From positions 1 through 64,000 of IMG/VR virus record IMGVR_UViG_3300042509_002208: DNA of 64,000 bases. The stretch is one strand, 5' to 3'. Positions 4,006 to 60,053 of this stretch are shown here, one piece after another. The first letter of the stretch is position 1, and every line of letters begins with the position of its first letter. A program made the translations under genes and the position numbers. Source of the DNA: a virus. The notes beneath the pieces are model-generated. The model made no database searches, was not told the DNA's origin, and was given only the letters and a program-made list of their open reading frames with translations.

Positions 4006-4007
4006 TT

Positions 4008-4017
4008 GGCATACTAG
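4008..4017 (+). promoter_or_regulatory. GGNANNCTA motif (candidate late promoter -10)
   Basis: GGCATACTAG starts 2 nt after the stop at 4005 and ends exactly 18 nt before the ATG at 4036. Confidence 0.5.
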
Positions 4018-4035
4018 TCCGCTTAATGGACCAGT

Positions 4036-5216: not shown

Positions 5217-5595
5217 GACAGAAAGGTGCTGTCCCTAGTTCATTGGCCCACAAGGAGATGACGCGACTTTCGCATTCATGCTCTGAGCAGACGACATTGC
5301 AATCAGATGCTAGCCATTGCCTGATGCGCCATTCTCTGTAGACACTATAGAACTCTTGCCTTCTGTACCAATCAATCCAGTCTTCTGACCCTTTTGAGTG
5401 GTTGCATTTCAGGCAAGCGGGCGTCACATTACTCGTTTTGTCCGAGCCGCCCTTTGATTTGGGCCTGACGTGATCAATTGTCAGGCTAGCGTCATCAATT
5501 GGCGGATTACCACAGTATGCACATTTGTTGTCCCATGCCTCCTTAATAGATTGTCTCCAGATTTTGCGTGCTTCTTTTCGTGTTAGGGCCGACAT
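5200..5595 (-). CDS. HNH homing-type endonuclease
   Basis: A 131-residue protein from the ATG at 5595 (an upstream ATG at 5664 would add 23 residues). It has CAYC at residues 25-28, LTIDHV with the catalytic Asp-His at 41-42, KGG, N56 and CLKCNH at 61-66: a full HNH nuclease core with two zinc-binding Cys pairs. It is the only leftward gene in the 2.7-37 kb block and lies between tail genes, as expected for a free-standing homing endonuclease that inserted there. Target site unknown. Confidence 0.85.
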   Translation of the reverse strand: MSALTRKEARKIWRQSIKEAWDNKCAYCGNPPIDDASLTIDHVRPKSKGGSDKTSNVTPACLKCNHSKGSEDWIDWYRRQEFYSVYREWRIRQWLASDCNVVCSEHECESRVISLWANELGTAPFCPISAA

Positions 5596-5680
5596 GTTAT
5601 ACAGATAATCAGATGAACATTCGTACAGGGGCAAAGAACCCTGCAATGAAGGCCGAAAAGGCATGTTGATTACTGTATTG

Positions 5681-5780: not shown

Positions 5781-5790
5781 GGAAATCTAT
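5781..5790 (+). promoter_or_regulatory. GGNANNCTA motif (candidate late promoter -10)
   Basis: GGAAATCTAT ends 13 nt before the TTG at 5804 and 22 nt before the GTG at 5813. Confidence 0.4.
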
Positions 5791-6268: not shown

Positions 6269-6278
6269 GGAACTCTAG
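6269..6278 (+). promoter_or_regulatory. GGNANNCTA motif (candidate late promoter -10)
   Basis: GGAACTCTAG lies 63 nt upstream of the proposed tail tube start at 6342. A CGGGG/CCCCG hairpin with a 9-nt loop follows at 6284-6302. Confidence 0.4.
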
Positions 6279-7016: not shown

Positions 7017-7026
7017 GGCACTCTAA
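7017..7026 (+). promoter_or_regulatory. GGNANNCTA motif (candidate late promoter -10)
   Basis: GGCACTCTAA lies between the tail tube terminator and the tape measure start, 27 nt before the ATG at 7054. Confidence 0.5.
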
Positions 7027-10000: not shown

Positions 10001-12195
10001 ATAACGAGCGCAAGATTGAACAAGCTGCAATTTTAAAGAAATTGCAGAACATTGGAACAGAGCAGCAACTAGAAAGACAGGTTCTTGAGTTAAAGCAGCA
10101 GGGTCAAAGACTGGAAGCGCAAATGGCAATTGATGCTGCAAACCAACTTGCGATTCAAGCCAGAATTGCGGAGCAAATTGCAATCCAAAATAAATTAAAG
10201 GCACAAGCAACTAAGGATCCAACTGATGACGCACCTGCCGCAAAACTAGTTGATTATGCAAAACAGTATGTCGAATACGCTGACAAGGGAGTAAATTCAG
10301 CAAAGCAGCGTTACAATACATTAACTCAGACGCAAGCTCTGGAAAAAGACACCTTAAACAACCAACAAGCTGCTGCAAGAAATAACTTGAATGCACAAGC
10401 GGCTCAGGTTGGATTGAATTCAACTATCGATAAAGGTGCTCAATCTTATGGGAACTTGAATAAAGAAAGTGCTGGATTCATCAGTGCTGGCGGAAAGACC
10501 GTTCAAGTATACAACGAATTAGGCAATGAAATTCGTCAAACCGGTCGCGATGCAGGCACTTTAGGGCAGCAGTTGAACAGCCTACCTAGAGACCAGTCCT
10601 TAAATATCGGTCTTGACGCAAATCTTGATCCTCAATCCGTCAACCAGGCAGTCTCTGAGGGTCAGGCTGCACTTGATCAGCCCGGCAGGCAATTAACGAC
10701 ACCATTGAAGCCTACCGTTGACACGGTTGGTTTCTACAATGAAGTCCGCCAAGCTGTTCAAACAGTTCAATCTTCTGACGCCACAAAAGTTTCGGCTCAA
10801 TTAAAAGTTGAAGGCCAAGAAATGGCGGCGGCTTCAATCCAAAGTCTTTCTAATTCTGTCGAGGATTACAAAACAAAAGTTGAGACTGCTAATCAAGCAC
10901 AAGGTCAACTCAATACTGCAATTTCTAATTACAATGAAGCTCTAAAAAGCGGTGATCCTACCAGGATTCTAGAAACAGCAGGAGCTTTAAGCTATCAAAG
11001 ACAAGTAGTGGAAGCCGCTAATATTGACCTGCAAAACGCCAAGGCGAATCTGCAAGATGCTGATGCGACCGCCAAAGTTCTTGGCGTTAACATTGGTAAT
11101 GTCGGAACTCAAGCCTCAAATGCATCTCAGCAAATCACCGGGATCGGCTCGGCGATTTCCACATCAGCCAATGAAATCACAAACTACACATCACAGCTAG
11201 AAAATTTCAGCACAAGTGCATCTCAAGGTGTCCAAAATGTCGGGACTGGACTGAATAGCCTGAAAACAGAAGCACAGGAGTTTGTTAATACCTTATCAGG
11301 TGCTCCTCAAGCCTTTGGTGAAATCGGTATTGCTGCTGGTGAATCGGCCAATGGTATAAACGGTATTTCAGAGAATTTGGCGGGCGTATCAGAGAATGCA
11401 GAGAATGCGGGCGACGCCTTTATGAGCATCTCCACTGGAGCTGGTGAAGCCGCAGATGCTGTTGATGATATCCCAAGTTCTCTTGAAGGTGTCGGCGATA
11501 GCGTCGACGGATTAGCCGGATCATTCTCCGATGCTGCTGATTACGCGGGACAGGTAGTCGAGTCTGGTTTTGACGGTGCCGCAGAAAATGCTAGCATTGC
11601 TGGAGACGACTTCAGCAATAGCCTAAGCACTGCCTCGACTCAGGCTGATGAAATTTACAGCACATTATCCAATATTGATGGATTAAATCCAACGGTTACC
11701 GTTAATGTCGTTGGAACCCCTGGCCGATTTGCTGGCGGCCCAGTCGATTCTGGCCAGATGTACCGAGTCAATGAACTCGGCAAGGAAGCATTCTTATCAG
11801 CAAGCGGTCGTCTTTCGATGATTAACAAGCCTAAGAATGCACTGTGGAGGGCACCATCTAGAGGTACTGTGATCCCCGCGCATTTAACCGCTGGTCTCTC
11901 TATCCCAAGCAGTGGTGTCAGCGTTGCAGCAGGGGCTTCTAGAAGGGTCTCCAGTGCAGTCTCTAACATGTCCAGCTCTGCTTCTATTGCACGGGCTGTA
12001 ACACAGGCCCTGAGGGCTTCTGGACTGCTTGAAACTAACAACAGCGCAGCCGCAAACCAGGCAGGGCAAGCGGTTCAGCTTGGAAAGCTAACGCATGCTG
12101 TTAACAAGCTGGTGGACAAGGATTGGAACGTTCAGGTAAACGTTAAAAATCCAAGTCCGTCCGCTTATGTTAATATGATTAACAGACTGTCATGA
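7054..12195 (+). CDS. Tape measure protein
   Basis: A 1713-residue protein, the longest in the window, with long helical and coiled-coil stretches rich in Ala, Gln and Lys. Around residue 300 it has the conserved block GKLMAEELTQQISEA followed by LANAIGVTVAQL and a GEITSQVLLEVL segment, typical of the tape measure N-terminal domain. Hydrophobic segments near residues 490-510 and 625-645 could insert in the host membrane during DNA entry. Tape measure length sets tail length; at about 0.15 nm per residue this predicts a tail of roughly 250 nm. Its end overlaps the next gene by 4 nt. Confidence 0.95.
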   Translation: MAKGDLQFGLTIDGGAAERYVQQWVSDVKNQTKQLSDEIQKALGGPPIKKELQIITTTDENGVKKQVTQLKEVGRITDTINQQWVNANKLQDGSVTRLRQQVNEAKQARDAISKIGKSADDLKTKINSINPAWDLANQKVRALSRELEIASASSFWQRIKAEFNLGPIVGAGKALNEIVNTFQSLSIVVGQLTAPIIALSNALNEIQQIDLLFKGIGGGPAEISKIFADSSRIALEYGVNLKTVRESFTQLTPVILASGGSLENVSQITSALSSRFATFGLSADKSRRVMNGVIQAFGKGKLMAEELTQQISEADPAFKTDLANAIGVTVAQLGEMVKAGEITSQVLLEVLPLLAKNSVYFGKLGTSATSAVAALGRGQATIEQVKNQLATLSQLNLESLAGLFKPLLGAFLQVQAAVVDFITNLRKLEVVKSLISVVNSLAVQLAGIFTAFTNVIIIVGKFVDPIFAAINAVDDFSQKLVGFKVLSAAVAAIITGLLIKSIVGLAATAIPKAITGIQGLATSLGILNGQSLMQFVTGIANGVKSMIAWIASAGQTIAANIAQAASYKTVTAAALATAAAKEVEANAGNLASKAAANAIRANKGVESSLNAVDAASGAAAGGFKLTAGAAAAAAAVLGVVAYAFNTYKTITEQGDTAAKNFDEGLKQLRAEMAATGTEAQNAATDTEMFANKLKDLAAQTRDRNVFDVVVDVVFMTDMNTAIAVLHAKAELNKRFKDLEKNVEGTKQRLQEYNAAQDKSGAGARALKQEILNQVKAYDLLIQEAIKARNELAQKAATSGAGLDPKEIIALKKFQEDIEKFRKARDGLIEETQAKGIQLDVKLSTEGEEQVITTIAGIDAELKSIKETTTVARIGEEGAEETENKIKGLDGLLKFIQENPVTVKIKAQFDIDKAAIASQIEYGQAMIENTRSRGELEGSIFGIYKARNSFAIQTAQEELQSMKDRKVSAEQIKQKENEIAQLKDNERKIEQAAILKKLQNIGTEQQLERQVLELKQQGQRLEAQMAIDAANQLAIQARIAEQIAIQNKLKAQATKDPTDDAPAAKLVDYAKQYVEYADKGVNSAKQRYNTLTQTQALEKDTLNNQQAAARNNLNAQAAQVGLNSTIDKGAQSYGNLNKESAGFISAGGKTVQVYNELGNEIRQTGRDAGTLGQQLNSLPRDQSLNIGLDANLDPQSVNQAVSEGQAALDQPGRQLTTPLKPTVDTVGFYNEVRQAVQTVQSSDATKVSAQLKVEGQEMAAASIQSLSNSVEDYKTKVETANQAQGQLNTAISNYNEALKSGDPTRILETAGALSYQRQVVEAANIDLQNAKANLQDADATAKVLGVNIGNVGTQASNASQQITGIGSAISTSANEITNYTSQLENFSTSASQGVQNVGTGLNSLKTEAQEFVNTLSGAPQAFGEIGIAAGESANGINGISENLAGVSENAENAGDAFMSISTGAGEAADAVDDIPSSLEGVGDSVDGLAGSFSDAADYAGQVVESGFDGAAENASIAGDDFSNSLSTASTQADEIYSTLSNIDGLNPTVTVNVVGTPGRFAGGPVDSGQMYRVNELGKEAFLSASGRLSMINKPKNALWRAPSRGTVIPAHLTAGLSIPSSGVSVAAGASRRVSSAVSNMSSSASIARAVTQALRASGLLETNNSAAANQAGQAVQLGKLTHAVNKLVDKDWNVQVNVKNPSPSAYVNMINRLS

Positions 12196-16557: not shown

Positions 16558-16567
16558 GGAACACTAG
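16558..16567 (+). promoter_or_regulatory. GGNANNCTA motif (candidate late promoter -10)
   Basis: GGAACACTAG begins 6 nt after the stop at 16551 and ends 29 nt before the ATG at 16597. A 12-bp palindrome, TGACTTAAGTCA, follows within the leader. Confidence 0.45.
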
Positions 16568-19948: not shown

Positions 19949-20071
19949 ATGGATACCAATATCTACGAAAAGGCCAAGATCGTTCAGATGATAGCCAGGA
20001 TTCAGGCCAAGAAGAAAGCCTCCCAATTGGCGATGCTTCGCAAGTTAAAGGATAAGCCAAAGAAGCGATAG
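19949..20071 (+). CDS. Tiny basic protein
   Basis: A 40-residue frame with ATG 3 nt after the previous stop. It is Lys-rich, with a helical N-terminus and a basic end (KLKDKPKKR). Its tight spacing between two structural genes suggests it is translated. It could be a head-packaged or DNA-binding peptide; no homology is recognised. Confidence 0.5.
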   Translation: MDTNIYEKAKIVQMIARIQAKKKASQLAMLRKLKDKPKKR

Positions 20072-20080
20072 GCATACTAA
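20071..20080 (+). promoter_or_regulatory. GGNANNCTA motif (candidate late promoter -10)
   Basis: GGCATACTAA starts on the last base of the upstream stop codon and ends 30 nt before the scaffold ATG at 20111. Confidence 0.45.
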
Positions 20081-20855: not shown

Positions 20856-20880
20856 AAAACCGGCTTCGGCCGGTTTTTTT
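20856..20880 (+). terminator. Rho-independent terminator after scaffold gene
   Basis: AAAACCGGC at 20856-20864 pairs with GCCGGTTTT at 20869-20877 around a TTCG tetraloop, followed by further T residues. Confidence 0.9.
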
Positions 20881-20896
20881 GTGATCAATTATCTTT

Positions 20897-20937
20897 ATTG
20901 CGATTCTCAATAACTTAATATTATTGAGAATCGCAAT
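20897..20937. repeat. Perfect 17-bp inverted repeat upstream of the capsid gene
   Basis: ATTGCGATTCTCAATAA (20897-20913) is the exact reverse complement of 20921-20937, with a 7-nt AT-rich loop. No T-run follows, and a terminator already lies 17 nt upstream, so a second terminator is unlikely. It could be an operator or a stabilising RNA hairpin in the capsid leader. Confidence 0.75.
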
Positions 20938-20940
20938 ATT

Positions 20941-20950
20941 GGTATTCTAA
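20941..20950 (+). promoter_or_regulatory. GGNANNCTA motif (candidate late promoter -10)
   Basis: GGTATTCTAA lies 3 nt after the 17-bp inverted repeat and 123 nt before the capsid ATG at 21074. If used, it gives the longest leader among the motif sites. Confidence 0.4.
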
Positions 20951-21073
20951 GGTGAAGTACCCAGCCCTGAACTGGTTGTGATGACCTATCGGGGAGGGTC
21001 TAGCGCAATCGGAACGTGATGTTCTAAAGGCGATTTACCTTTCCTCAAATAGTTATCATCAACTAGGAGAAAC

Positions 21074-22029: not shown

Positions 22030-22039
22030 GGAAAACTAG
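22030..22039 (+). promoter_or_regulatory. GGNANNCTA motif (candidate late promoter -10)
   Basis: GGAAAACTAG directly follows the capsid terminator and ends exactly 18 nt before the GTG at 22058. Confidence 0.5.
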
Positions 22040-22057: not shown

Positions 22058-23257
22058 GTGATTTTTTCGTCGTCCGATATTGAACGCTTAATCGGCGACG
22101 ATCCGATTATCAAGGCAATTTGCGATATCGAAATAGTCGACGCAAAGCCTGCCCTGAAGGCCGGTAGTGGTGTTGTTATTTATATTAAACGATATCCTGA
22201 GCTGTCCGAATTTGAAGCAAGGTGGGATATCTGGATTATTGACTATGACAACGAACCAGTTGATGTTGTTATCCGTCAACTGAGAAAATTACTGCCTCGA
22301 TTTACACTTATTGAAGAAGGCGTAATCATAAAAGCCAGCACAACAGAACTTAGATCTGAGCGAACCGAAACTGAGATAAAGATCGAGCCAGTTGCAGTTA
22401 CAGAAGATCCTTATGAAGAGAAGTTCCAGGATCTCCTTCAATCCATAGAAGACAGGATGCTGCTCGTTGGTCCTGGCAGATCAGGACGTGACGGCAGAGA
22501 TGGTAAAGATGGCATTAATGGTAAAGATGGCATAGACGGCAAAGATTTAGAAGTTACTGAAGTTGAACTTGGCGATCTCAACGATGTCTTTATTTCTGAC
22601 GCAAATCGTGGCCAGTTCCTCATGTTTGATGGAGCTGGTTGGATTCCACGCTTTGTTCCTCAGGTATTCTCAGGTGGCGGTGGAGGTTCCAGTGAAGGCG
22701 GTGGAGGAGACGGCACAATGCCGGAACCACCAGATGATGGCAGATTCTATCTTCGACAAGTCAACAATGGCGCAGGCCAGTGGGTTGATTTACTGACTGC
22801 ACTGAATGCATTGTATCTTGATGGTGGTGATTTTGACGGAAGAAGAGTTAAGACTTCTACTGGTAATTACGTTGTTACTGGATATAGTTCATCTCGTTAT
22901 ATCATCAAGACGCTTCCTGCGGATAGAGGAACGTTTATTGCATCGGGCGAAAATGGTTCGTTCTTGTTTGATCGGATACTTAAAGCCGATAGCGTTGACT
23001 TAATCGTTGCCGGTTCACCTGCAACAATATCAGCTTCTCGTATTGTAACGGCTGATGCAGCCAGCTTTACTGTAACAGGTCAATCAGGAGATGATATTAT
23101 TGGTTATCGTATTCTTGGAGCAGTTGGCAATATTGACCTGACTGGCTCAGATGGTCAGATTCGTTACAACGAACCCGATGTTCAGTTTTATGGAGATTGG
23201 GCTGCTCAAAACTATGGTTACCTAAGTGAAGTCTACCCTGACGGATGGGCTGGGTAG
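22058..23257 (+). CDS. Fibre protein with a collagen-like segment
   Basis: About 399 residues from GTG 22058, preferred over TTG 22052 because AAGG lies at a better distance. The N-terminal 130 residues form a mixed domain that probably anchors to the virion. A Gly-X-Y collagen-like run follows (GRSGRDGRDGKDG, GKDGIDGKD), then a LGDLNDVFI segment and Gly/Ser linkers. The C-terminal beta-rich domain resembles tail fibre tips. It is the first gene after the capsid terminator and starts the adhesin cluster. Confidence 0.65.
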   Translation: MIFSSSDIERLIGDDPIIKAICDIEIVDAKPALKAGSGVVIYIKRYPELSEFEARWDIWIIDYDNEPVDVVIRQLRKLLPRFTLIEEGVIIKASTTELRSERTETEIKIEPVAVTEDPYEEKFQDLLQSIEDRMLLVGPGRSGRDGRDGKDGINGKDGIDGKDLEVTEVELGDLNDVFISDANRGQFLMFDGAGWIPRFVPQVFSGGGGGSSEGGGGDGTMPEPPDDGRFYLRQVNNGAGQWVDLLTALNALYLDGGDFDGRRVKTSTGNYVVTGYSSSRYIIKTLPADRGTFIASGENGSFLFDRILKADSVDLIVAGSPATISASRIVTADAASFTVTGQSGDDIIGYRILGAVGNIDLTGSDGQIRYNEPDVQFYGDWAAQNYGYLSEVYPDGWAG

Positions 23258-23266
23258 GTAACCTAG
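23257..23266 (+). promoter_or_regulatory. GGNANNCTA motif (candidate late promoter -10)
   Basis: GGTAACCTAG starts on the last base of the upstream TAG and ends 18 nt before the ATG at 23285. The same ten bases recur at 39222. Confidence 0.5.
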
Positions 23267-24790: not shown

Positions 24791-24800
24791 GGAATTCTAG
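24791..24800 (+). promoter_or_regulatory. GGNANNCTA motif (candidate late promoter -10)
   Basis: GGAATTCTAG begins 8 nt after the stop at 24782 and ends 32 nt before the ATG at 24833. Confidence 0.45.
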
Positions 24801-24832: not shown

Positions 24833-27466
24833 ATGCCGATCCCTAGCCCTCGTGTAAGGTTTCAGGTCGCACGAGGCGTTTACGCTAACTTATTAGCAGG
24901 GCTCGGGGAGTTTGAGGATGGCGAGCTTTGCTATGCCAGGGACCAAGACAGCTTATATATCAAGGAAGAGAATGAGTTAATTAAATTAAGCTCGGGCCTT
25001 GATAGCGAACTGGCAAATTACATCAGGGAGATCACAGGAGTAAATTACACCAACGAGCCCATGGGGCACGTTGACAAAAATGAAAGTGTAATCTCTTTCG
25101 ATGCCGATAATCGTATATTTTCTATTGCTCCTGTTGCTGCCAGCTTTACTGTATGGTGCGCTGGTTTTAAGGTAGTTTTCGTAGGGACTGAATCAGTTAC
25201 ACTTCCCGACGAGACTGGTTTATATTATATTTTCTTTGATGAGAATGGTGACCTTGGATACCAAGATGGTTACTTTAACTGGGAACTGCAGGCGCCTACC
25301 GCTTATGTTTATTGGAATGCAGAAACAGCTCAGGCTGCATATTTTGGCGATGAGAGGCATGGTATCACTCTAGATTGGCAGACGCATGAATATCTTCACA
25401 GAACAAGAGGTGCCGTTTTTGCTGATGGCTTTGATATTGGTGGCTATACACTTTCTGGCGACGGTAGTCTTGATGCTGACGCGCAGTTCAGTCTGGATAA
25501 TGGAAGCTTTTTCGATGAAGACTTACAGGTTGATATAAGTCACTCAGAAACTCCTGCTCTTAATACCTGGCAGCAGCATATTACGAGCCCCTGCAGAGCG
25601 CCTGTACTTTACCGTTCTGGCGCTGGATATATACTTGATTCTCCGACTGATTTTCCGGTAAAGGCAGGTGTTTCGTATCCGTTGTACAATTCTGCAACTG
25701 GAGGTGCCTGGTCTACGGTCGAGGCTAGTGCAAACAAATATATTGTAGCATTTGTAATTGCTACAAACAATCTAAACTATCCCGTCATTAGCGTGATGGG
25801 ACAATCTGTTTACAATAATATTGCGGACGCCAAGGCTGTATCATTTGCTTCTTTAAATTTAGAGAATTTTCCATCTCTAGAGTTTAGGACTCTTTATCGG
25901 TTAATACTCCAGACTGGCAATTATGGTAACTCTATCGGCGCCAGATTAAGAGAAGTTCAAGATTTGAAATATGCGACGATTGGCTCCATCAGCCCTGTTG
26001 AACTTAGTTCCGAACAAATTCAAGACTATGCCTCTCAGTTGTTTATAAATGGAATACATTCGGGCTTAAGTTTTTCTTATGACGATGATAACGATAGAAT
26101 TAACGCCACAGCAGATGTCAGGTCTGTCAATAACCAGATTGGCGATGTTTCCCTGGATATGCTGGACGCTTCTGATGCGGCTTTAAGTTTCAGTGATATA
26201 TCGCAAGGCTCCTGGACCGCTACTGGGACCAGCGATCTTCCTGCTATTGCTCAATTCTCTCAATCTGGCAATACTTTAACTTTTCATTCAAATCCGATTG
26301 ATATTGCTGGTCAGTTGACTCAGGGTGACATCATATTACTAAATGCCGTTATAGCAACAGTAGAGAGTACTTCGTCTGTTCCCGCAGAGGACTACTGGAC
26401 TTTAACGGCAAGCGGAGTAACTCTGCCCATCTATTCGGCAGGTGAGACCTTGCAGTTATTTATAAGAACAGACAACCTAATTGCTGATAAAGATGTTTGG
26501 ACCTACAACTTGTCTAGACAGAAATGGGAGCCAAAATCCGCGCTTCAGGCAGAAGACGTACCAGCACTAGTCACTCCTTTGTTTGCTCATGGTTATCATA
26601 CCGGAATTACATTTGAGTACGACGAAGCGAATGCGCATATTGACGCGACTGTTTTAGCGCAAAACATAGAAAGTATCGACGATATTGGAGACGTTGACAC
26701 TTCGACCACTACACCTTCTGACGGACAAGTGCTTACATGGAATGCGATTACCTTAAGGTGGGAGCCGACTACGGTCAATATTGGCGTTACTAGCGTCGAC
26801 ATAATTGGTGGCACTGGACTAACAGCTTCTGGAGGTCCTATTACGAGCAATGGCTCTATTGCGATTGACTTAGACAATACTACTGTTAGCCCTGGTTCAT
26901 ACACGAATGCAGATATTACTGTTGATGCTCAGGGACGTATTACGGCTGCATCGAGTGGCACTCAAGCGAGTACTGCTCTTGATGATCTAACTGATGTAGA
27001 TACATCTACTATTCCGCCTGTTAATGGACAAGCTCTTATTTGGAACCAGACTTCCTCCCAATGGGAGCCAGGAAATGTAGAGACTTCTGGCTCGATTAGC
27101 AGAAGTTCCGCTTCAGCAATTCTCGCTATTGCCGCTGGCGCAACAACCATATCTTCAATTTCACTCTCGAAAAGTTGCATAATATACAAAATTACAGTAG
27201 ATAAGGCTTGTTGGCTGCGGCTTTACAATTCTTTGGCTTCAGCCAATAGTGATAGCACAAGATTGCGCACAGAAGACCCCGAAGCGTCAGGTGGTGTAAT
27301 ATGTGAGATCATAGCAACAGGAGCTGATTCTTACGTACTAACGCCAACGCCAACAGCAATGAACGCAGAGTCGCCCGTATCATCGTATTATCAACTTAGA
27401 GTTACAAATGATGATTCAGTTTCAGATGTTCAAGTTACGATCGAATACTTAACCCTGGAATCCTAA
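24833..27466 (+). CDS. Large tail fibre protein
   Basis: An 877-residue protein. The N-terminus (VRFQVARGVYANLLAGLGEFEDGELCYARDQDSLYI with breaks) is of the type that anchors fibres to the virion; the same kind of start recurs at 28128 and 29777. The C-terminal part holds at least two copies of a DVDTST-PP-GQ-L-WN-WEP module, common in phage fibres, followed by a Gly/Thr-rich shaft. It probably binds a host surface receptor. No enzymatic motif. Confidence 0.75.
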   Translation: MPIPSPRVRFQVARGVYANLLAGLGEFEDGELCYARDQDSLYIKEENELIKLSSGLDSELANYIREITGVNYTNEPMGHVDKNESVISFDADNRIFSIAPVAASFTVWCAGFKVVFVGTESVTLPDETGLYYIFFDENGDLGYQDGYFNWELQAPTAYVYWNAETAQAAYFGDERHGITLDWQTHEYLHRTRGAVFADGFDIGGYTLSGDGSLDADAQFSLDNGSFFDEDLQVDISHSETPALNTWQQHITSPCRAPVLYRSGAGYILDSPTDFPVKAGVSYPLYNSATGGAWSTVEASANKYIVAFVIATNNLNYPVISVMGQSVYNNIADAKAVSFASLNLENFPSLEFRTLYRLILQTGNYGNSIGARLREVQDLKYATIGSISPVELSSEQIQDYASQLFINGIHSGLSFSYDDDNDRINATADVRSVNNQIGDVSLDMLDASDAALSFSDISQGSWTATGTSDLPAIAQFSQSGNTLTFHSNPIDIAGQLTQGDIILLNAVIATVESTSSVPAEDYWTLTASGVTLPIYSAGETLQLFIRTDNLIADKDVWTYNLSRQKWEPKSALQAEDVPALVTPLFAHGYHTGITFEYDEANAHIDATVLAQNIESIDDIGDVDTSTTTPSDGQVLTWNAITLRWEPTTVNIGVTSVDIIGGTGLTASGGPITSNGSIAIDLDNTTVSPGSYTNADITVDAQGRITAASSGTQASTALDDLTDVDTSTIPPVNGQALIWNQTSSQWEPGNVETSGSISRSSASAILAIAAGATTISSISLSKSCIIYKITVDKACWLRLYNSLASANSDSTRLRTEDPEASGGVICEIIATGADSYVLTPTPTAMNAESPVSSYYQLRVTNDDSVSDVQVTIEYLTLES

Positions 27467-28092: not shown

Positions 28093-28102
28093 GGAAAACT
28101 AA
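28093..28102 (+). promoter_or_regulatory. GGNANNCTA motif (candidate late promoter -10)
   Basis: GGAAAACTAA begins 7 nt after the stop at 28085 and ends 25 nt before the ATG at 28128. Confidence 0.45.
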
Positions 28103-29713: not shown

Positions 29714-29723
29714 GGAAAACTAG
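29714..29723 (+). promoter_or_regulatory. GGNANNCTA motif (candidate late promoter -10)
   Basis: GGAAAACTAG begins 5 nt after the stop at 29708. The terminator stem starts only 2 nt downstream, so a transcript starting about 7 nt after the -10 would lack part of the 5' arm. Confidence 0.45.
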
Positions 29724-29725
29724 TG

Positions 29726-29750
29726 GGCCCCGTACATACGGGGCCTTTCC
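29726..29750 (+). terminator. Terminator-like hairpin after fibre gene
   Basis: GGCCCCGT at 29726-29733 pairs with ACGGGGCC at 29738-29745 around ACAT, followed by TTTCCTT. The T-run is short, so termination may be partial. Confidence 0.7.
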
Positions 29751-30771: not shown

Positions 30772-33700
30772 TGACTTACGGAACTCTTAAGGTTGACCAT
30801 CTGCAGTCCAGCGACGGCACAGTCTTTGCTATCAATGAGATTGGCGGACCTAAAGCCGATCTGGTTAATGGCAAGATTCCGGCTGGTCAACTCCCTAGTA
30901 TCGCGATTTCGGACTTCCTTGGCGAAGCCGCAGACGGCACAGAGCTGGTTGCGCTGGCTGGGGAGAAGGGTGACTGGGCCATCAGGACGGACACCGGCTC
31001 TACATGGGTGATCGTCGACAACGACGGGTCGTCCTTGGCCGACTGGGTAGAAATTGCATCGCCTGCAAGCCCCGTTACCAGCGTCAATGGGCAGGTTGGG
31101 GCTGTCGTTCTGGCCGCGTCGGACGTGAACGCTGCCACAGCGGCCCAGGGCGCTTTGGCCGATAGCGCAATTCAGCCCGGCGATAACATCAGTGCTCTGA
31201 CGAACGACGCTGCTTTTATCACCTCAGCTCAGGCCCCTGTCCAGTCGGTGGCAGGTAAGTCGGGTGCAGTCACCTTGGTGAAGGCAGATATCACTGACTT
31301 TGCAGATGGTGACTACGCGACGGCGGCCCAAGGCGCTCTTGCGGACAGTGCATTGCAGGCCGGAGATATTGGCAGCTCAGTGCAGGGCTATGACGCCAAC
31401 ACCGTGGTGGATGGTACCTACGTCCACACCGACAACAACTACACCAGCGCAGAGAAGGCGAAGCTGGCGGCGATTGAAGAAGGCGCCGAAGTCAACGTCA
31501 GTGCTGACTGGAATGCCACTTCAGGCGATGCTGCAATTCTGAACAAGCCGACGCTTGGGACCGCCTCGGCCCAGGACGTGGCCTATTTCGCGACTGCGGC
31601 ACAAGGTGCTCTTGCTGATACTGCGCTGCAGCCAGCGGCCATCGGCGTGAGCTTGCAGGCCTTTGATGCGAGTCTCGTTTCTGACGGCGCCTACGTCCAC
31701 ACCGATAACAACTACACCACGGCAGAGAAAGACAAGCTCGCTGGCATAGAGGCTGGTGCCGAGGTCAACGTCAACGCCGATTGGAGCGCTGCCAGCGGTG
31801 ATGCTGCGATCCTGAACAAGCCCGCACTTGGAACTGCTGCGGCTGAGGATATTGAGGCGTTTGCCACCGCAGCCCAGGGGGGACTGGCTGATAGCGCCCT
31901 CCAGCCTGGCGACGCAGTGAGTGACCTCACCAACGACGCTGCCTACATCACATCCGCTGAGGCCCCAGTCCAGTCTGTGGCTGGCAAGACCGGCGCTGTC
32001 ACTCTGGTGAAGGCTGATGTTGGCCTGAACAACGTCAACAACACCGCTGACGCCAATAAGCCCATCAGCAACGCCACGCAAGCGGCTTTAGACGGCAAAG
32101 CGGATCTTGAAAACGGCAAGCTGAAGGCCGATCAGATCCCGGATCTGGCCATCAGCAGCTTCCTGGGTGAGGCCGCGAGCGAGGCAGCGATGCTGGCGCT
32201 CTCCGGTCAGCGCGGCGACTGGGCCGTGCGCACTGACACCAGCGAGAGCTACATCCTTGTTGCCGACGATGCATCGCAACTCGCGAGCTGGCGCAAGCTG
32301 TTGACCCCCGTGGACGCCGTCCTGAGCGTCAACGGTGAAACCGGTGCGGTCTCGCTCGATGCGGCTGATGTAGGCGCAGCCACCAGCGCCCAGGGTGCTC
32401 TGGCAGACACTGCCGTTCAGCCTGGTGACGACATCAGTGACCTCGTTAATGATGCCGGTTACATCACTTCTGTCGAGGCTCCGGTCCAGTCCGTAGCCGG
32501 CAAGACCGGCGCTGTCTCGCTGGTCAAAGCAGACATCTCTGATCTGGTTGAAGGCGACTACGCCACTGCTGGACAAGGCTCGCTGGCCGACTCGGCTCTG
32601 CAGCCTGGTGACATTGGGGTCAGCGTCCAGGCCTTCAGCGCTGACACCGTTGTGGACGCATCTTACGTCCACACCGACAACAACTACACCAGCGCAGAGA
32701 AGAGCAAGCTCGCTGGGATCGCCGATGGGGCTGAAGTCAACGTCAATGCTGACTGGAGTGCCTCCAGTGGGGATGCTCAGATCCTGAACAAGCCTACCCT
32801 GGGTACCGCTGCTGCGCAGGACTCAACCGCGTTCGCGACTGCAGCGCAAGGAGGCCTTGCCGACAGCGCCATTCAGCCTGGCGACAACATCAGCGAGCTG
32901 ACCAACAACGCCAACTTCATCACCGCAGCAGGTGCTCCGGTCCAGTCCGTAGCCGGCAAGACCGGAACCGTCACTCTGGCCAAAGGTGATGTGGGGCTCG
33001 GGAATGTCGACAACACCAGCGACGCCAACAAGCCTGTGAGCACCGCTGCCCAGGCAGCTCTCGATCTGAAGGCCCCGCTCGCGTCCCCAGCTCTGACTGG
33101 TACGCCCACGGCGCCTACAGCAGCCGCAGATACCAACTCCACGCAGGTGGCGACTACGGCCTATGTGGTGGGCCAGGGCTACCTGAAGTCGGCAGCCGCC
33201 GCCTCGACCTACGCGCCGATCGCAAGCCCGACTCTGACCGGAACGCCGGCAGCCCCGACTGCCGCTGCAGACACCAACTCCACGCAGATCGCCACAACCG
33301 CCTATGTGGTGGGCCAGGGCTACCTGAAGTCAGCAACAGCTAGCAGCACCTATGCCCCGCTCGCCTCTCCTGCACTGACGGGCGCTCCGACTGCTCCGAC
33401 AGCAGCCGCAGGGACCAACACCACCCAGATCGCAACCACGGCCTTCGTCCAGGCTGCGACCGACGCAGCCAAGCAAGGGCTCACGGTTAAGCAAAGCTGC
33501 CGGGTAGCCACAACAGCAAACATCACGCTGAGTGGCACGCAGACGATCGACGGAATCTCCGTCGCGGCTGGTGAACGGGTCCTGGTGAAGAACCAGACGA
33601 CTGGATCCGAGAACGGCATCTACGTCGTCGCGTCTGGCTCCTGGGCTCGGGCCACAGATTTCGATGCCTCTGCGGACGTTGCTGACGGCGCCTTCACCTT

Positions 33701-39221: not shown

Positions 39222-39231
39222 GGTAACCTAG
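39222..39231 (+). promoter_or_regulatory. GGNANNCTA motif (candidate late promoter -10)
   Basis: GGTAACCTAG begins 3 nt after the stop at 39218 and ends 18 nt before the ATG at 39250. It is identical in sequence and spacing to the site at 23257. Confidence 0.5.
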
Positions 39232-39642: not shown

Positions 39643-39652
39643 GGCACTCTAT
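39643..39652 (+). promoter_or_regulatory. GGNANNCTA motif (candidate late promoter -10)
   Basis: GGCACTCTAT ends exactly 18 nt before the ATG at 39671. A weaker relative, AGTAAACTAG, lies 21 nt upstream at 39622. Confidence 0.5.
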
Positions 39653-40435: not shown

Positions 40436-40445
40436 GGTAGACTAC
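40436..40445 (+). promoter_or_regulatory. GGNANNCTA motif (candidate late promoter -10)
   Basis: GGTAGACTAC ends 10 nt before the ATG at 40456 and 19 nt before an in-frame ATG at 40465. The usual spacing favours the second start for the endolysin. Confidence 0.4.
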
Positions 40446-46660: not shown

Positions 46661-47473
46661 ATGGAACTCAACCAGGACAGCCTGACCCACTGGATGAACA
46701 GAGCCGGGTCTAAGCCCCTGTTGGATCAGGTTGAAATTGATAATATCGCCAGGATTATCCAGTCATCCGAGCCTGGCTCTAAGAAATATAAAAAATATGT
46801 CAACAAGATTGTCGAGCACAACCTTCGCCTTGTCGTGAAGTTTGTCCATGCGTTTATGACGCATAAGACGATGAACAATTGGGGATCGCCAGATACCCTT
46901 GACTATCTTCAAGTTGGTTCACTTGGCTTGTATCGGGCAGCAGAAAAGTACGACCCAGATAGAGGATATAAGTTTTCTACTTACGCAACACACTGGATTC
47001 GTTCATTTGTCGGCAGGTATAACCTGAAAACAATGAGCACTTTTACGATACCAGAGCACGCCTCTCGTAATGCTCATTATTTTGAGGCTCACGGGACTCC
47101 AAAGAGACGCAAAAGTGGCGTCATGCCAACCGATGGCGAAACAGTCGAAATGGTCAAGCTATTGCGTAATGCGCAACGGCCTATGTCGCTGGATGTAACC
47201 ATTGATGCCTGTGGCGTTACATTGCTTGACACCATAGATAGGCAATACGAGGCGCCGGATGCTTTTGTTGAAGGGTGCTTCGATACAGAGACTGAAGACC
47301 TCTTCGTTAAAGCCGGGCTCAGCGGAAAACAGATCTTCATCCTTCGAGGACTCTTCGTTGATAACGCCAAAGCAGGTGACATCCAAAAGGATCTATGCAT
47401 CTCCCAAGGGCAGTATCTGAAACTAAAGAAGCAGGCTTTGGACTCGCTAAAGTCTGTATTAGAACCGGTATAA
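46661..47473 (+). CDS. Sigma-70 family factor with regions 2 and 4
   Basis: A 270-residue protein from ATG 46661. It has a region 1.2-like start (SLTHWMNRAGSKPLL) and a well-conserved region 2 (VEHNLRLVVKFV, DYLQVGSLGLYRAAEKYDPD, YKFSTYATHWIRSFVGRY). The C-terminus (LSGKQIFILRGLF, then ISQGQYLKLKKQALDSLKSVL) fits region 4. It probably redirects host RNA polymerase to phage promoters, both -35 and -10 types. It follows a terminator and precedes ssb. Confidence 0.85.
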   Translation: MELNQDSLTHWMNRAGSKPLLDQVEIDNIARIIQSSEPGSKKYKKYVNKIVEHNLRLVVKFVHAFMTHKTMNNWGSPDTLDYLQVGSLGLYRAAEKYDPDRGYKFSTYATHWIRSFVGRYNLKTMSTFTIPEHASRNAHYFEAHGTPKRRKSGVMPTDGETVEMVKLLRNAQRPMSLDVTIDACGVTLLDTIDRQYEAPDAFVEGCFDTETEDLFVKAGLSGKQIFILRGLFVDNAKAGDIQKDLCISQGQYLKLKKQALDSLKSVLEPV

Positions 47474-51805: not shown

Positions 51806-51975
51806 CGTATCCTGATTTCCCAATGACCGTCACCCAAGAAGAAGACGGCAGTTTTACTATTGAATGGGATCAAAACCATCCCGTTACATCTTACTTCAAT
51901 GATTTCACCGAAGAAGATTTCATTGAAATGATTATGGCTCGTTGCAAATTAGTATTGGGTGAAGAGATAGAGTAA
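51802..51975 (+). CDS. Small acidic protein between terminase genes
   Basis: A 57-residue frame with ATGA overlap to the small terminase and one-base overlap to the large one: MTYPDFPMTVTQEEDG, then FNDFTEEDFIEMIM. Its strict coupling on both sides argues that it is real. It may modulate packaging; no family is recognised. Confidence 0.6.
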   Translation: MTYPDFPMTVTQEEDGSFTIEWDQNHPVTSYFNDFTEEDFIEMIMARCKLVLGEEIE

Positions 51976-53501
51976 TGGCCATTAAACTCGGCAAGGATTT
52001 CCTGGAGAGGTCAGCTTCCGACCGGGAGATGGTCCGCAAGCTGCGGGAAATTAAGACTGAAAGGAAAGAAGGTGCCAAGAAGGTAATCCTTTATAAGTTC
52101 ATTAAGGAAGTTTGTGCCAGTTATAAGTTCTACAAGGTTCACGCAGAGCTGACTAGACAGCTTCAAAGGGTTATTGACGGAGACTGCAAACGACTAATTA
52201 TCCAGATCCCTCCCAGAACTGGAAAGTCGATGCTGTCATCAAAGTTGCTGCCGGCAGCTTATCTACTTGCACATCCTGATCGTTACGTCGGCATCAGTTC
52301 CTACAGTGCGGAATTGGCAGAAGGTTTTTCACGCGCAGCCAGGGACTACTACAGGGAAGCTGGCGGGCTATTCGACCCTCACAAGCAGGCTGTGAACGAC
52401 TGGGGTACCCAAGGTGGCGGTGGCCTGTGGGCTGCTGGCGTCGGCGGCGCCATCACCGGTCGTTCTGGTCACTTGTTGATCATCGACGACCCGGTGAAAA
52501 ACAGAGAAGATGCAGACAGCCCCAGAGTCATGGAGAAGCTGTGGGATTGGTACACATCTACTTTATATACACGACTTGAACCGGTGGTTGGCTCTATTGT
52601 CGTCATTCAGACTAGATGGAGCGAGAACGATCTAATTGGCAAGCTTCTTGAGTCTGAGATGAATGTCTCAGAGAAAGGCCGAGAGAATTGGACAATCCTG
52701 GATCTTCCGGCAATCTCGGAAGATATGGGTTCACGTCCGCCTTTGCCATCTCATTGTGATGTTGTAGAAGATTGGAGAGAGAAATCCGGGGAAGCGCTTT
52801 GTCCGCAACGCTATGGGATCGATGAATACGAACGCATCAGAGAAGCAATTGGTACTCGCGACTTTGCTGCCTTGTATCAACAAAGGCCAGCTCCTGTCGG
52901 CGGTAACATGTTCGATCCTAGCTGGTGGCAATATTATGAACATGACACGGTAATGCCTGAATTCCAGCGCATCATGCTCAGTGTCGACTGTACTTTCACC
53001 AGCAACAACAATAGCGACTATGTTGTTGGCAGCGTCATCGGACAAGCCGGAAACAGGTTCTATGTGATTGACATGGTCAGAGAAAGACTCGATATCGTCG
53101 GAACAATCAACATGATTTCAAGGATGTATAACAAGCACTCCTTGAGCGGTACGATTATCGAACTTGCAGCTTCCGGCTATGCCGCTTACCAAATGCTGCA
53201 ACAGCGGGTTCCAGGACTGATTGGCTTCAAGCCGGAGAAATCAAAATCAGCTAGAGCTGCCGGTATCGTGCCAATTGTTGAGGCTGGAAATGTCTTCCTG
53301 CCAGCCAGTGCCACATGGCTCGATTCGTATATAAATGAATTCAGCCTGTTTCCTGCTGCAAAGAATGATGACATCGTCGACTCTATTACGATGGCGATTA
53401 ATTATATGGCGCAAAGATCTGCGCCTGTCATGACCGAAGTGACATGGGGGCGCACTGCTTTTGTTCCTGGGGCGACCGCTAGAATAGAAATAAACACATA
53501 A
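51975..53501 (+). CDS. terL: Terminase large subunit
   Basis: A 508-residue protein. ATPase: Walker A PPRTGKS at 79-85 and Walker B LLIIDDP with D171-D172, then VVIQTRWSENDL (coupling motif). Nuclease domain: first Asp in MLSVDCTF near residue 337 and last acidic pair in KNDDIVDSI near 465. It drives DNA into the procapsid through the portal and cuts the concatemer. Overlaps neighbours by one base on each side. Confidence 0.95.
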   Translation: MAIKLGKDFLERSASDREMVRKLREIKTERKEGAKKVILYKFIKEVCASYKFYKVHAELTRQLQRVIDGDCKRLIIQIPPRTGKSMLSSKLLPAAYLLAHPDRYVGISSYSAELAEGFSRAARDYYREAGGLFDPHKQAVNDWGTQGGGGLWAAGVGGAITGRSGHLLIIDDPVKNREDADSPRVMEKLWDWYTSTLYTRLEPVVGSIVVIQTRWSENDLIGKLLESEMNVSEKGRENWTILDLPAISEDMGSRPPLPSHCDVVEDWREKSGEALCPQRYGIDEYERIREAIGTRDFAALYQQRPAPVGGNMFDPSWWQYYEHDTVMPEFQRIMLSVDCTFTSNNNSDYVVGSVIGQAGNRFYVIDMVRERLDIVGTINMISRMYNKHSLSGTIIELAASGYAAYQMLQQRVPGLIGFKPEKSKSARAAGIVPIVEAGNVFLPASATWLDSYINEFSLFPAAKNDDIVDSITMAINYMAQRSAPVMTEVTWGRTAFVPGATARIEINT

Positions 53502-54130
53502 TGGCCCGTAAATCTCTGGATTTTCAGCTCACGCCTGAGCAACAGAAGATGGCCGCTGATAATATTAATCTAGCAAGAAGAGAGGCTTGGCGGATCCAGA
53601 GAACTACAGGCATAGATTATTCAACACTTGAAGGCGCGGCGTTTCTTGGTCTGTGCAAGGCTTGCCATCGATATGATCCGGATTCCGGATACAAGTTTTC
53701 TAGTCTGGCTACGCCGACAATTAGAGGTGAATTGCTGCACTGGGTCAGAGACAGGACTTACGCAATGCGGTTATCTCACAAGATGAGAGAAAACTGGATT
53801 AAAGGTAGGAAGATGCTGTATTCCGGATCTAGCGATATCGAGGTTGCAGACGAGCTTGGCCTGAGCTTGCAGGAATGGCAAGAGACAAGATCCGCTTGCT
53901 CCGGCCCTCCATTAGAATTAAAGGATCAGTCTATGCCGACAGATCCACTTGAAGCTGAAGAGATCAATTTCAGGGAGATATATCAGGAAAAGGCTACTGA
54001 TATCATAGAAAGCTTAAGCGAAGAAGATAAGGAATTCCTGGATGACTATTTCAATAGCCAGGGAGTCAAGCCTCCTGTTAGAAAATTTCAAGTGCTCTGG
54101 GAAGAGCTGTCTAAACGTAAACTAACGTGA
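53501..54130 (+). CDS. Divergent sigma-70 family factor, no recognisable region 4
   Basis: A 209-residue protein. Region 2 is clear: NINLARREAWRI, YSTLEGAAFLGLCKACHRYDPD, YKFSSLATPTIRGELLHWVRD. It is followed by a region 3-like part (MRLSHKMREN, SDIEVADELGLSLQEW). The C-terminal 50 residues (SLSEEDKEFLDDYF, then WEELSKRKLT) show no convincing helix-turn-helix. A sigma with region 2 only would recognise -10 elements without a -35, as T4 gp55 does. It overlaps the terminase gene by one base, placing it in a late-acting cluster. Confidence 0.75.
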   Translation: MARKSLDFQLTPEQQKMAADNINLARREAWRIQRTTGIDYSTLEGAAFLGLCKACHRYDPDSGYKFSSLATPTIRGELLHWVRDRTYAMRLSHKMRENWIKGRKMLYSGSSDIEVADELGLSLQEWQETRSACSGPPLELKDQSMPTDPLEAEEINFREIYQEKATDIIESLSEEDKEFLDDYFNSQGVKPPVRKFQVLWEELSKRKLT

Positions 54131-54186: not shown

Positions 54187-54306
54187 ATGACCTGGCTTGG
54201 CCACCATCTAGCTGATGTCTTGGTTATGGTAGCGCCATTGCTGCCACTTTCTTTGGCATTGCTAATTTTGTACCTCATCGCTACGGCTCCAGATGATCAT
54301 AAGTGA
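54187..54306 (+). CDS. Tiny single-span membrane protein
   Basis: A 39-residue frame with one hydrophobic segment (VLVMVAPLLPLSLALLILYLIA) and a short polar end. It overlaps the primase start by 14 nt. Too short to classify. Confidence 0.45.
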   Translation: MTWLGHHLADVLVMVAPLLPLSLALLILYLIATAPDDHK

Positions 54307-55873
54307 CACAACGCTGACAGCCATACGCGAAATACCTTTCACTACGATTCTGCAAAAAGAGAATATATCATTTAAAAAGATCGGCAAAGAAGCAGTTACA
54401 TTATGTCCATGGCACAATGACAGTAATCCGTCGATGACGGTTAGCGATGAAAAGAACTTGTGTTATTGCTTTGTCTGTCAATATGGCACTGATACTATTG
54501 GGTTCCTGCAGCAAAAGCTAGGGCTTGACTTCAGTGATGCAGTTCATCGCATAGCTAATTGCGGCGATCTTGTCGTAGAATATGACAACATCGACCCCAA
54601 GCTTGCCGTCCAGGAAGCCAAGAGAAGAGCGGAGCTGTTTGACAAAACCAACAGACAACAAGAGAATTTCCGTAAAAATATAACCGATGCGAGAGCTATT
54701 CGTATCCATCAAATCTTAGAAGAGAGAGATATAGCTCCCTCGACAAGTCGTCACTTTGGGCTTGGGTATGCAATCGATGGCTTTTTTGCTGATCGCATTA
54801 CTGTTCCAATTCATGACCATCAAGGTTACTTAGTTGGATTCACCGGACGGGCAACAAGAGATGAAGCAAAGCCAAAGTATAAGAACTCTGAAAACGGTGA
54901 GATATTTGACAAATCAAGAATTGTTTATAATGAATACAGAGCGAGCGAAGCTATCAGGGAAGCTGACAGCGTTATCTTTGTTGAAGGGCATTTTGACGTT
55001 ATTAGCTTGTGGCAGCACGGGATCCGTAATGTTGTAGCAATGCAGGGGACCGCCCCACCCAGTGAAGCTATCCTGAAAAGACTGTCTAGAAAGACGAAAC
55101 GATTCATCTTATGCTACGACAGCGATGAAGGTGGAACTAAAGCTATCGAGAACTTCATCAAGGTAGCCGGACCCGCCGCTTGCAGAGGTGAGATAACAAT
55201 ATCTGTGGCTGAGTTGCCTGATGGAATGGATCCCGATGAGTGCATCAGAGATGAATCTATCGATTTCTTTTCTATTATCGAGAATTCGGTTTCATGGCTT
55301 GACTGGCAGTTGGATGTATGGCTTGCCAACGTAGATAGGACAGATACGGCAAAGTTCATTCAGATAGAAACTAGTGTCAGGCAGTTGGTTGAATCTATCA
55401 ATTCGCCTAGTTTGCGTCAATACTATATTGACAAGGCCTCCAAAATTTTGGCTGCAAATCAAAAGTCTGCCGCAAAAATTGCTAAGGAGTGGTCCGAGAA
55501 TATTAAAGTAGTCAGATTAAAAAGAACATGGACAAAGCCAACACCTGCGGAAACAAGGATTGGGGCTGAAAAGAAGTTGCTGCGGATGTACATCCACATA
55601 CCAGAACTGCGGGAAGAGTGCCGCAAGTTGATGGATCGACTGCAATCCCCTAGTCATAGGTGGCTGTGGCAGAGGATCAATGAATTGGAGGAGCACGACA
55701 CCAGACCGCTAGAGCCAGAAGCTGTAATGGCGGTCTTGGCGGTATGCGAGCCCTATTACACCAGGCAGTTGCGACCTATAGCGGTTCCTACAATAAAAGT
55801 GCTGAATAACTCAGGCATCCTTAAACACATTCAAAAAACACTGAGTGAGGAGTTGACGATCAATGGCATCTAG
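54293..55873 (+). CDS. DnaG-type primase
   Basis: A 526-residue protein. The N-terminal CHC2 zinc finger uses C38, H41, C59 and C62 (CPWH, CFVC). The Toprim core has VIFVEGHFDVISLW near residue 226 and CYDSDEGG near 275 for metal binding. It makes RNA primers for the lagging strand and probably works with the DnaB-type helicase encoded 10 kb away on the other strand. The C-terminal third is divergent. Its 3' end overlaps the glutaredoxin gene by 11 nt. Confidence 0.92.
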   Translation: MIISDTTLTAIREIPFTTILQKENISFKKIGKEAVTLCPWHNDSNPSMTVSDEKNLCYCFVCQYGTDTIGFLQQKLGLDFSDAVHRIANCGDLVVEYDNIDPKLAVQEAKRRAELFDKTNRQQENFRKNITDARAIRIHQILEERDIAPSTSRHFGLGYAIDGFFADRITVPIHDHQGYLVGFTGRATRDEAKPKYKNSENGEIFDKSRIVYNEYRASEAIREADSVIFVEGHFDVISLWQHGIRNVVAMQGTAPPSEAILKRLSRKTKRFILCYDSDEGGTKAIENFIKVAGPAACRGEITISVAELPDGMDPDECIRDESIDFFSIIENSVSWLDWQLDVWLANVDRTDTAKFIQIETSVRQLVESINSPSLRQYYIDKASKILAANQKSAAKIAKEWSENIKVVRLKRTWTKPTPAETRIGAEKKLLRMYIHIPELREECRKLMDRLQSPSHRWLWQRINELEEHDTRPLEPEAVMAVLAVCEPYYTRQLRPIAVPTIKVLNNSGILKHIQKTLSEELTINGI

Positions 55874-56775: not shown

Positions 56776-56785
56776 GGCAGTCTAT
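56776..56785 (+). promoter_or_regulatory. GGNANNCTA motif upstream of ribonucleotide reductase
   Basis: GGCAGTCTAT ends 19 nt before the ATG at 56805. It is the only exact match found so far outside the structural and lysis region. Confidence 0.4.
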
Positions 56786-59452: not shown

Positions 59453-60053
59453 TTATCAGATTGCTCAATATGCAAAGAAAGGGCTCATTGAACCCTTCAA
59501 TGAGAAACAGGTTAATCCTGCATCTTATGATGTCAGACTGAATGGCTGCTTGCTGCTTGAGCACGAGCCGGACAAAGATTACCCAGAAGAATCGCTAAAG
59601 TGCGATTGTAGATGGGTCAAGCATATCTGTGATGAAGGTGGTTACCTTCTGAAGCCTGGTGAGTTTGTACTGGGCTGCACGGAAGAGTTCTTCAGTGTAC
59701 CACCAGAACTCGAAGCTGTGTTTCAGCTCAAATCTTCCCGTGGAAGAGAGGGATTTGAACATGTGCTGAGTGGTTACATTGACCCAGGATTCTCTGGTAG
59801 ATTGACATTGGAATTAGTAAATGTCAACAGATACCATGATTTACTATTGCTTCCTGGAATGCTAATTGGGCAAGTCCGTTTTATGAAACTGGACGAACGT
59901 CCCAGGAGAGACTACTCACAAACTGGTCATTATCAAAATGACACAAATGTGCAGTATTCAAAAGTAGATGTCTTTGGTAATCAGGCTCAAGACCAAGAGC
60001 GAGGCTCGTTTGGTGTGTCGATTGCCGAGGCTGGTGTATTCCCGGAATCCTAG
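59436..60053 (+). CDS. dcd: dCTP deaminase
   Basis: A 205-residue protein of the dCTP deaminase/dUTPase fold: NPASYDVRL at 27-35, KSSRGREG at 99-106, GYIDPGFSGRLTLELVN at 113-129 with the catalytic Glu at about 126. It turns dCTP into dUTP, which after hydrolysis feeds ThyX. Whether it also hydrolyses dUTP cannot be told from sequence. Part of the nucleotide block with nrdJ and thyX. Confidence 0.9.
   Translation: MSTICDYQIAQYAKKGLIEPFNEKQVNPASYDVRLNGCLLLEHEPDKDYPEESLKCDCRWVKHICDEGGYLLKPGEFVLGCTEEFFSVPPELEAVFQLKSSRGREGFEHVLSGYIDPGFSGRLTLELVNVNRYHDLLLLPGMLIGQVRFMKLDERPRRDYSQTGHYQNDTNVQYSKVDVFGNQAQDQERGSFGVSIAEAGVFPES

Follow-up and report, generated by a model that had tools for sequence, protein, structure and literature searches.

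A sigma factor lacking region 4 and a single-element late-promoter motif predicted in cyanobacterial siphoviruses

The DNA analyzed here (the window: 64,000 nucleotides of a 79,110-base virus record) comes from a siphovirus with close synteny to Synechococcus phage S-CBS2 and codes for two sigma-70 relatives. One of these, which we call sigma-B, has no recognizable region 4 and is most likely a late sigma factor that reads GGnAnnCTA, a motif found mostly before the structural genes. We consider it probable that sigma-B steers the host RNA polymerase (RNAP) to this single-element promoter, with a clamp tether in those relatives that end in a QxxLF tail forming part of the same explanation. In such a mechanism, sigma-B would redirect the cyanobacterial RNAP to tnGGaAncCTAg, with its regions 2 and 3 binding the core polymerase and reading the promoter element; region 4, predicted from structure to be cut short with the loss of its recognition helix, would then read no -35 element. 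Presumably expressed with the terminase/primase block, sigma-B would turn on the structural module. On phage DNA that is being replicated, the tail of the QxxLF subfamily would anchor the holoenzyme to the host's β sliding clamp, and the window's own branch would use the same promoter element with no clamp tether.

The sigma-B gene and its family

The sigma-B gene directly follows that of the large terminase, and the coupling of the two proposed in an earlier note on this DNA takes the form of a 1-nt overlap, the sigma-B ATG sharing one base with the terL stop codon (TAATG). The two sigma factors, the neighbors of sigma-B and its parts are as follows.

46661–47473, + strand: sigma-A, the second phage sigma, regions 2–4, RpoS-like (Pfam, PHROG, phmmer)
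51975–53501, + strand: large terminase (terL), directly 5' of sigma-B (gene search, Pfam, PHROG)
53501–54130, + strand: sigma-B, 209 aa, regions 2–3 without region 4 (ORF, Pfam, PHROG, AlphaFold2)
53567–53755, + strand: Sigma70 region 2, residues 23–85 (Pfam PF04542, E=1.8e-7, the sole Pfam match of sigma-B)
53774–53899, + strand: region-3-like part, residues ~92–133, beginning LSHKMRENWIKGRK (phmmer/HMM alignment to FliA and SigA; AlphaFold2 helices)
53897–53926, + strand: CSGPPLELKD block, residues 133–142, a candidate sigma finger (region 3.2) from its position (alignment)
53969–54127, + strand: C-terminal three-helix part, residues 157–209, fast-evolving, probably a truncated region 4 (AlphaFold2, no Sigma70_r4 match, alignment)
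54293–55873, + strand: DnaG-type primase, directly 3' of sigma-B (Pfam; order as in S-CBS2, S-CRES1 and S-CRES3)

Sigma-A spans both regions 2 and 4, as had been claimed for it, and aligns to RpoS over its full length (residues 7–267 to RpoS 66–326, E=3.7e-20, phmmer). Residues 1–181 of sigma-B match PHROG 36098, "RNA polymerase sigma factor" (E=3.9e-77), which places it in a phage sigma family already on record; by this match and the Pfam region 2 hit it counts as a sigma-70 relative, though not as a complete sigma-70 factor. Its named relatives are S-CBS2 gp077 ("SigF", 63%), the proteins of S-CRES1-3 (60-63%) and P-SS2 ORF003 ("type III sigma", 49%). Of these, S-CBS2 gp077, S-CRES1 gp20, S-CRES3 gp21 and P-SS2 ORF003 are orthologs with 43-65% identity over the protein, and the position directly 3' of terL is shared by all named relatives examined; a DnaG primase gene directly follows in S-CBS2, S-CRES1 and S-CRES3 as well. 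The protein is thus not new: the P-SS2 ortholog was annotated in 2009 as a group 3 sigma "likely" to serve a specific regulon, with no promoter assigned to it (PMC2784084). An Rfam scan of the window gave no match.

More than 80 sigma-B relatives were collected from viral contigs, of which 55 make up the alignment; the tail counts below refer to 58 non-redundant full-length members. The one match in a bacterial genome (L145, DGOV01000074.1, 57%), from a metagenome-assembled genome labelled Proteobacteria, is probably a mis-binned phage contig. Across the 55 aligned members regions 2-3 and the CSGPPLELKD block, the first seven residues of which are invariant, are nearly unchanged, and the last ~50 residues vary freely. 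The absence of region 4 and this free variation of the C-terminus would suit a decaying or decoy sigma fragment with no promoter function. However, about 38 residues are invariant across the alignment, synteny is kept, and dN is low, with dN/dS at 0.022 for the core in the pair L074/L083 and 0.038 for the whole protein in L056/L057. The core is under strong purifying selection, and therefore we give next to no credence to sigma-B being a decaying fragment.

A C-terminus that probably ends ahead of the recognition helix

ORF 53501 had been described from the sequence as having region 2 and a region-3-like part with no recognizable region 4, and Pfam, phmmer and AlphaFold2 agree on this. When the 55 relatives were scanned singly, all 55 matched Sigma70_r2 and none matched any Sigma70_r4 model. 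The AlphaFold2 model of the window's protein (mean pLDDT 81) has helices at 93-107, 112-119 and 123-133 in the region-3-like part and at 157-171, 174-185 and 193-204 toward the C-terminus (block pLDDT 74-88). In an ordinary sigma region 4 it is the fourth helix that reads DNA; this recognition helix is absent from the model, the chain stopping at 209, and the predicted C-terminus hence consists of three helices. The model of a QxxLF-form sigma-B also has three helices at the C-terminus, together with a tail predicted at low confidence. The C-terminus is probably a region 4 cut off ahead of the recognition helix. In Foldseek the full-length model aligned to sigma factors, but the TM-scores were poor, and the correspondence of the C-terminal domain to region 4 is therefore a putative one. 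A PDB search with the C-terminal 60 residues returned chance matches only. A hidden full region 4 was rejected, there being neither a profile match nor a recognition helix in the model.

By sequence, the closest solved relatives of sigma-B over regions 2-3 are the group 3 sigmas (FliA/SigF/SigB). Among solved structures, phmmer puts FliA and cyanobacterial SigA closest, with matches that cover regions 2-3 only (residues ~22-138). Such similarity accounts for the database names "SigF" and "type III sigma". FliA, SigF and SigB have region 4 and use promoters with a -35 plus a -10 element, whereas sigma-B lacks region 4 and its presumed motif lacks a -35.

A -10-only motif before the structural genes

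The motif, GG[ACT]A..CTA[AG] as a regular expression, was taken by eye from upstream regions of the window; hence, it is the other phages that serve as real tests. Predicted late-promoter motifs in the window, followed by two further motif sites, are as follows.

2977–2986, + strand: GGAAAACTAA, 31 nt 5' of gene 3008
4008–4017, + strand: GGCATACTAG (4008–4016 being GGCATACTA), 28 nt 5' of gene 4036
5781–5789, + strand: GGAAATCTA, 23 nt 5' of gene 5804
6269–6278, + strand: GGAACTCTAG, 115 nt 5' of gene 6384
7017–7026, + strand: GGCACTCTAA, 37 nt 5' of the tape-measure gene 7054, just 3' of a terminator hairpin
16558–16567, + strand: GGAACACTAG, 39 nt 5' of gene 16597
20071–20080, + strand: GGCATACTAA, 40 nt 5' of gene 20111
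20941–20950, + strand: GGTATTCTAA, in the 133-nt leader of the predicted major capsid gene 21074
22030–22039, + strand: GGAAAACTAG, 22 nt 5' of gene 22052, 6 nt 3' of a terminator hairpin
23257–23266, + strand: GGTAACCTAG, 28 nt 5' of gene 23285
24791–24800, + strand: GGAATTCTAG, 42 nt 5' of gene 24833
27457–27466, + strand: GGAATCCTAA, 57 nt 5' of gene 27514
28093–28102, + strand: GGAAAACTAA, 35 nt 5' of gene 28128
29714–29723, + strand: GGAAAACTAG, 63 nt 5' of gene 29777
39222–39231, + strand: GGTAACCTAG, 47 nt 5' of gene 39269
39643–39651, + strand: GGCACTCTA, 29 nt 5' of gene 39672
40436–40444, + strand: GGTAGACTA, 20 nt 5' of the predicted lysin gene 40456
56776–56784, + strand: motif GGCAGTCTA, 29 nt 5' of the predicted ribonucleotide reductase gene 56805, outside the structural module
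60044–60053, + strand: motif GGAATCCTAG, 54 nt 5' of the predicted portal gene 60098

The window's record has 25 motif sites on the plus strand versus 4 on the minus strand. For GG[ACT]A..CTA, a gene start follows within 70 nt at 16/25 sites in the window (p=6e-16), 28/36 in S-CBS2 (p=5e-25), 23/30 in S-CRES1 (p=1e-19) and 16/18 in P-SS2 (p=2e-17), and the motif is commoner before genes of the structural module in all four phages (Fisher tests: 0.003, 6e-8, 7e-7 and 0.015, respectively). Near ORF starts it ranks first of 180 (itself and 179 permutations of its letters) in 18 of 22 records with sigma-B. Of the four in which it does not, G008 and G009 are fragments, and G011 and G012 are among the most divergent members. 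A de novo EM search blind to the regular expression recovered a GGnAnnCTA-like motif in the window, S-CBS2, S-CRES1, G015, G016, G018 and, on the minus strand, G013. An altered motif in the two divergent records was rejected: in G011 the search did no better than on shuffled sequence, and in G012 it gave only a weak pattern unrelated to the motif. Over 83 pooled sites (consensus tnGGaAncCTAg) there is no -35 element: no upstream column exceeds 0.2 bit except two flanking bases, and none beyond -2 upstream of the motif exceeds 0.1 bit. The -10-only motif that the earlier note had picked out, including the stretch 4000-4040 that it proposed as a template, is thus real and far above chance, and is as described in lying mostly before structural genes and in differing from the T4 late promoter TATAAATA.

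Within GGnAnnCT the A and the T stand as far apart as -11A and -7T do in a -10 element, and in this presumed register the GG would fall at -14/-13, the extended -10 position. In S-CBS2, S-CRES1 and P-SS2 the motif mostly stands 27-34 nt before the start codon, leaving a short leader. This tight spacing is what one would expect if GGnAnnCTA were no promoter and acted in the RNA, at a set distance from the start codon, to direct translation or mRNA processing. We regard that as very unlikely, since spacing in the window is loose (20-63 nt, with ~130 nt for the capsid gene), the A/T spacing fits a -10 element, and some S-CBS2 motifs lie inside or just before a hairpin. Furthermore, several motifs come just 3' of a hairpin that resembles an intrinsic terminator, and the tape-measure genes of the window, S-CBS2 and S-CRES1 offer the clearest examples. 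Such a placement fits a promoter because transcription must restart there. At the capsid gene of the same three phages a GGnAnnnTA variant follows a terminator ~130-150 nt upstream.

The capsid leader in the window (20860-21073) runs ~130 nt past the promoter-like site, which a terminator and an inverted repeat precede; those of S-CBS2 and S-CRES1 are similarly long, with a GGnAnnATA variant of the motif. In a few other places a terminator-like hairpin overlaps the motif or comes right after it (window 29714-29745; S-CBS2 32942-32975 and 33353-33383), so that RNA initiated at the motif would be missing part of the hairpin, and RNA reading through from upstream could be terminated. The structural module of the window also contains an HNH endonuclease gene in the opposite orientation (5200-5664, - strand), and one is similarly placed in S-CBS2 (10394-10858) and S-CRES1.

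Which sigma factor reads the motif

Sigma-B is the best candidate reader of GGnAnnCTA because its lack of region 4 matches the lack of a -35 in the motif, and because the two co-occur: every genome found with the motif also has sigma-B, and cyanosiphoviruses that lack the factor do not have the motif. S-CBS1, S-CBS3 and S-CBS4, cyanosiphoviruses without sigma-B that serve as controls and are not close relatives of the sigma-B phages, have zero motif sites near ORF starts. The idea of factor and motif as a late switch, put forward in the earlier note, is partly supported, by their joint distribution over the phage family; that the factor acts directly on the promoter is inferred.

The motif could instead be a promoter of sigma-A or of a host sigma, with sigma-B, for example, modulating elongation or serving another regulon. 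Sigma-A has a region 2 too and occurs together with sigma-B in most records searched. However, its region 4 and its RpoS-length alignment lead one to expect a -35 element at its promoters, and none is present at the motif; moreover, S-CBS1 and S-CBS3 have a sigma-A-like group 2 sigma, no sigma-B and no motif near ORF starts. The authors of the P-SS2 genome, who looked for sigma-70 promoters only and predicted only sigma-70-like ones, gave these to its group 2 sigma (PMC2784084). We therefore hold it unlikely that sigma-A or a host sigma is the reader and favor sigma-B.

The C-terminal QxxLF tail and the sliding clamp

In 32 of the 58 non-redundant full-length members, sigma-B has Q-x-x-[L/V]-F as its exact C-terminus (QGSLF in 15, QPSLF in 4, QASLF in 3, and others), and Q-x-x-[L/V]-F is found at 0 of 12,734 other positions. 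The carriers form the largest subfamily; the window's own protein ends without the tag, as do its close relatives and P-SS2. On the tree four gains or losses of the tag are needed, which fits a large clade with later losses. The L074/L083 pair is 47% identical in the tail and yet keeps the last five residues with silent changes, and the distant members L064 and L065 retain little of the tail except QG[SR]LF. L121, in a clade that otherwise lost the tag, has the C-terminus ESDLF, which may be a clamp motif degraded by a Q-to-E change. Neither a frameshifted QxxLF 3' of the window's sigma-B, in other frames after 54130, nor another QxxLF protein among the plausible genes of the window's phage was found.

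The bacterial β-clamp-binding motif is Q-x-x-[L/M]-[F/L] (PMC11139829); the tail fits it and looks like a putative clamp binder. In peptide studies clamp binding is weakened by Gly at position 2 (PMC11139829), the residue that most tags have there, and hence modest affinity is predicted. Scans for a bacterial-type clamp (DnaN, PF02768) gave no match in 11 phage records; PF02916, a low-power control, gave none in 8, and no family A polymerase scored above the cut-off in 8. The S-CBS2 and P-SS2 annotations have a helicase and a primase and no DNA polymerase. With no clamp gene found in the phages, the partner of the tail would be the host clamp.

We tentatively propose, at somewhat less than an even chance, that in most relatives QxxLF tethers the region-4-less sigma to the host clamp, which would be a convergent second case outside the T4 family; the late switch in these phages may be clamp-dependent. 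If the tether is real, GGnAnnCTA late promoters would fire on replicating phage DNA without a phage-encoded clamp. It is also fairly plausible, though less likely than not, that QxxLF is no clamp tether and contacts RNAP or another phage protein. The suboptimal Gly (PMC11139829) speaks for such a contact, and so does the conservation of other tail residues, R at -7 (31/32) and G at -15 (29/32), which suggests that the tail may do more than bind the clamp. Against it, Q, L/V and F are fixed at the exact clamp-motif positions at the very C-terminus, the match to the bacterial motif is close (PMC11139829), and L064 and L065 have kept the pentapeptide while mostly losing the tail. As for the host-clamp tether, the absence of the motif from the window's protein and clade means that the tether cannot be essential to the system; judging from the genomes, GGnAnnCTA is used with or without the tag.

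Relation to T4 gp55 and phiEco32 gp36

Phage sigmas without region 4 that use single-element promoters are known twice, in T4 gp55 and phiEco32 gp36 (PMC8948821). T4 gp55 combines a sigma-2-like core, a divergent linker and a C-terminal clamp epitope (PMC2988020, PMC7892883). Sigma-B resembles it in having region 2 without region 4, in its predicted and presumably late -10-only promoters and in a divergent linker; the likeness of the C-terminal, putatively clamp-binding motif to the gp55/gp45 system is confined to the QxxLF subfamily. It differs in having a region-3-like part and a three-helix C-terminal part, in its phages' promoter, GGnAnnCTA versus TATAAATA, and in that no phage clamp gene was found, so that the host β clamp would substitute for gp45. 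In hhalign, with gp55 as a single sequence, homology of the two was rejected (probability 0.05%, E=0.8). As the proteins are not detectably homologous, their shared plan of sigma core, linker and clamp tail would be convergent.

Hence, gp55, which the earlier note had offered as the known precedent, is a parallel in architecture with no sequence similarity found. The parallel is closer than was claimed for many relatives, given their clamp-motif ends, but the window's own protein lacks the motif. Nor is gp55 the sole precedent: phiEco32 gp36 too has no region 4, and its single element, tAATGTAtA, lies upstream of middle and late genes (PMC8948821). Sigma-B shares with gp36 the lack of region 4 and, as predicted here, the use of a single promoter element. 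PhiEco32 differs in being an E. coli podovirus and in the sequence of the element, and the passages on gp36 consulted report no clamp motif.

What is new here is a predicted cyanosiphovirus promoter code, the matching of a truncated region 4 to -10-only promoters, and the clamp-motif tail. GGnAnnCTA, found in the S-CBS2, S-CRES1 and P-SS2 genomes as in the window, would be a concrete late-promoter code for a widespread group of cyanobacterial siphoviruses, tied to a sigma that has probably lost its -35-reading part. A review of T4 late transcription calls the restriction of clamp-activated transcription to T4-related phages "puzzling", no other natural case having been found (PMC2988020), and our search of a limited literature collection likewise found no other case of clamp-coupled transcription outside them. 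The clamp-type tail of many sigma-B relatives makes this puzzle testable, and the natural split into tagged and untagged family members is a ready comparison.

Among the orthologs, S-CRES1 and S-CRES3, both tag carriers, end in QGSLF, whereas P-SS2 and the window have no tag and the deposited S-CBS2 frame is broken before QGSLF. As deposited (GU936714.1, 8001-8800), S-CBS2 gp077 stops early at ...SRVPQGRC*, and the frame directly 3' of this stop runs on to ...GRLQGSLF*, which may reflect a natural frameshift or a sequencing error; S-CRES3, a close relative of S-CBS2, has an intact 244-aa frame. The RusA resolvase of S-CBS2 (52103-52474) ends in QEPLF, possibly a clamp-binding C-terminus in its own right that was not seen in S-CRES1.
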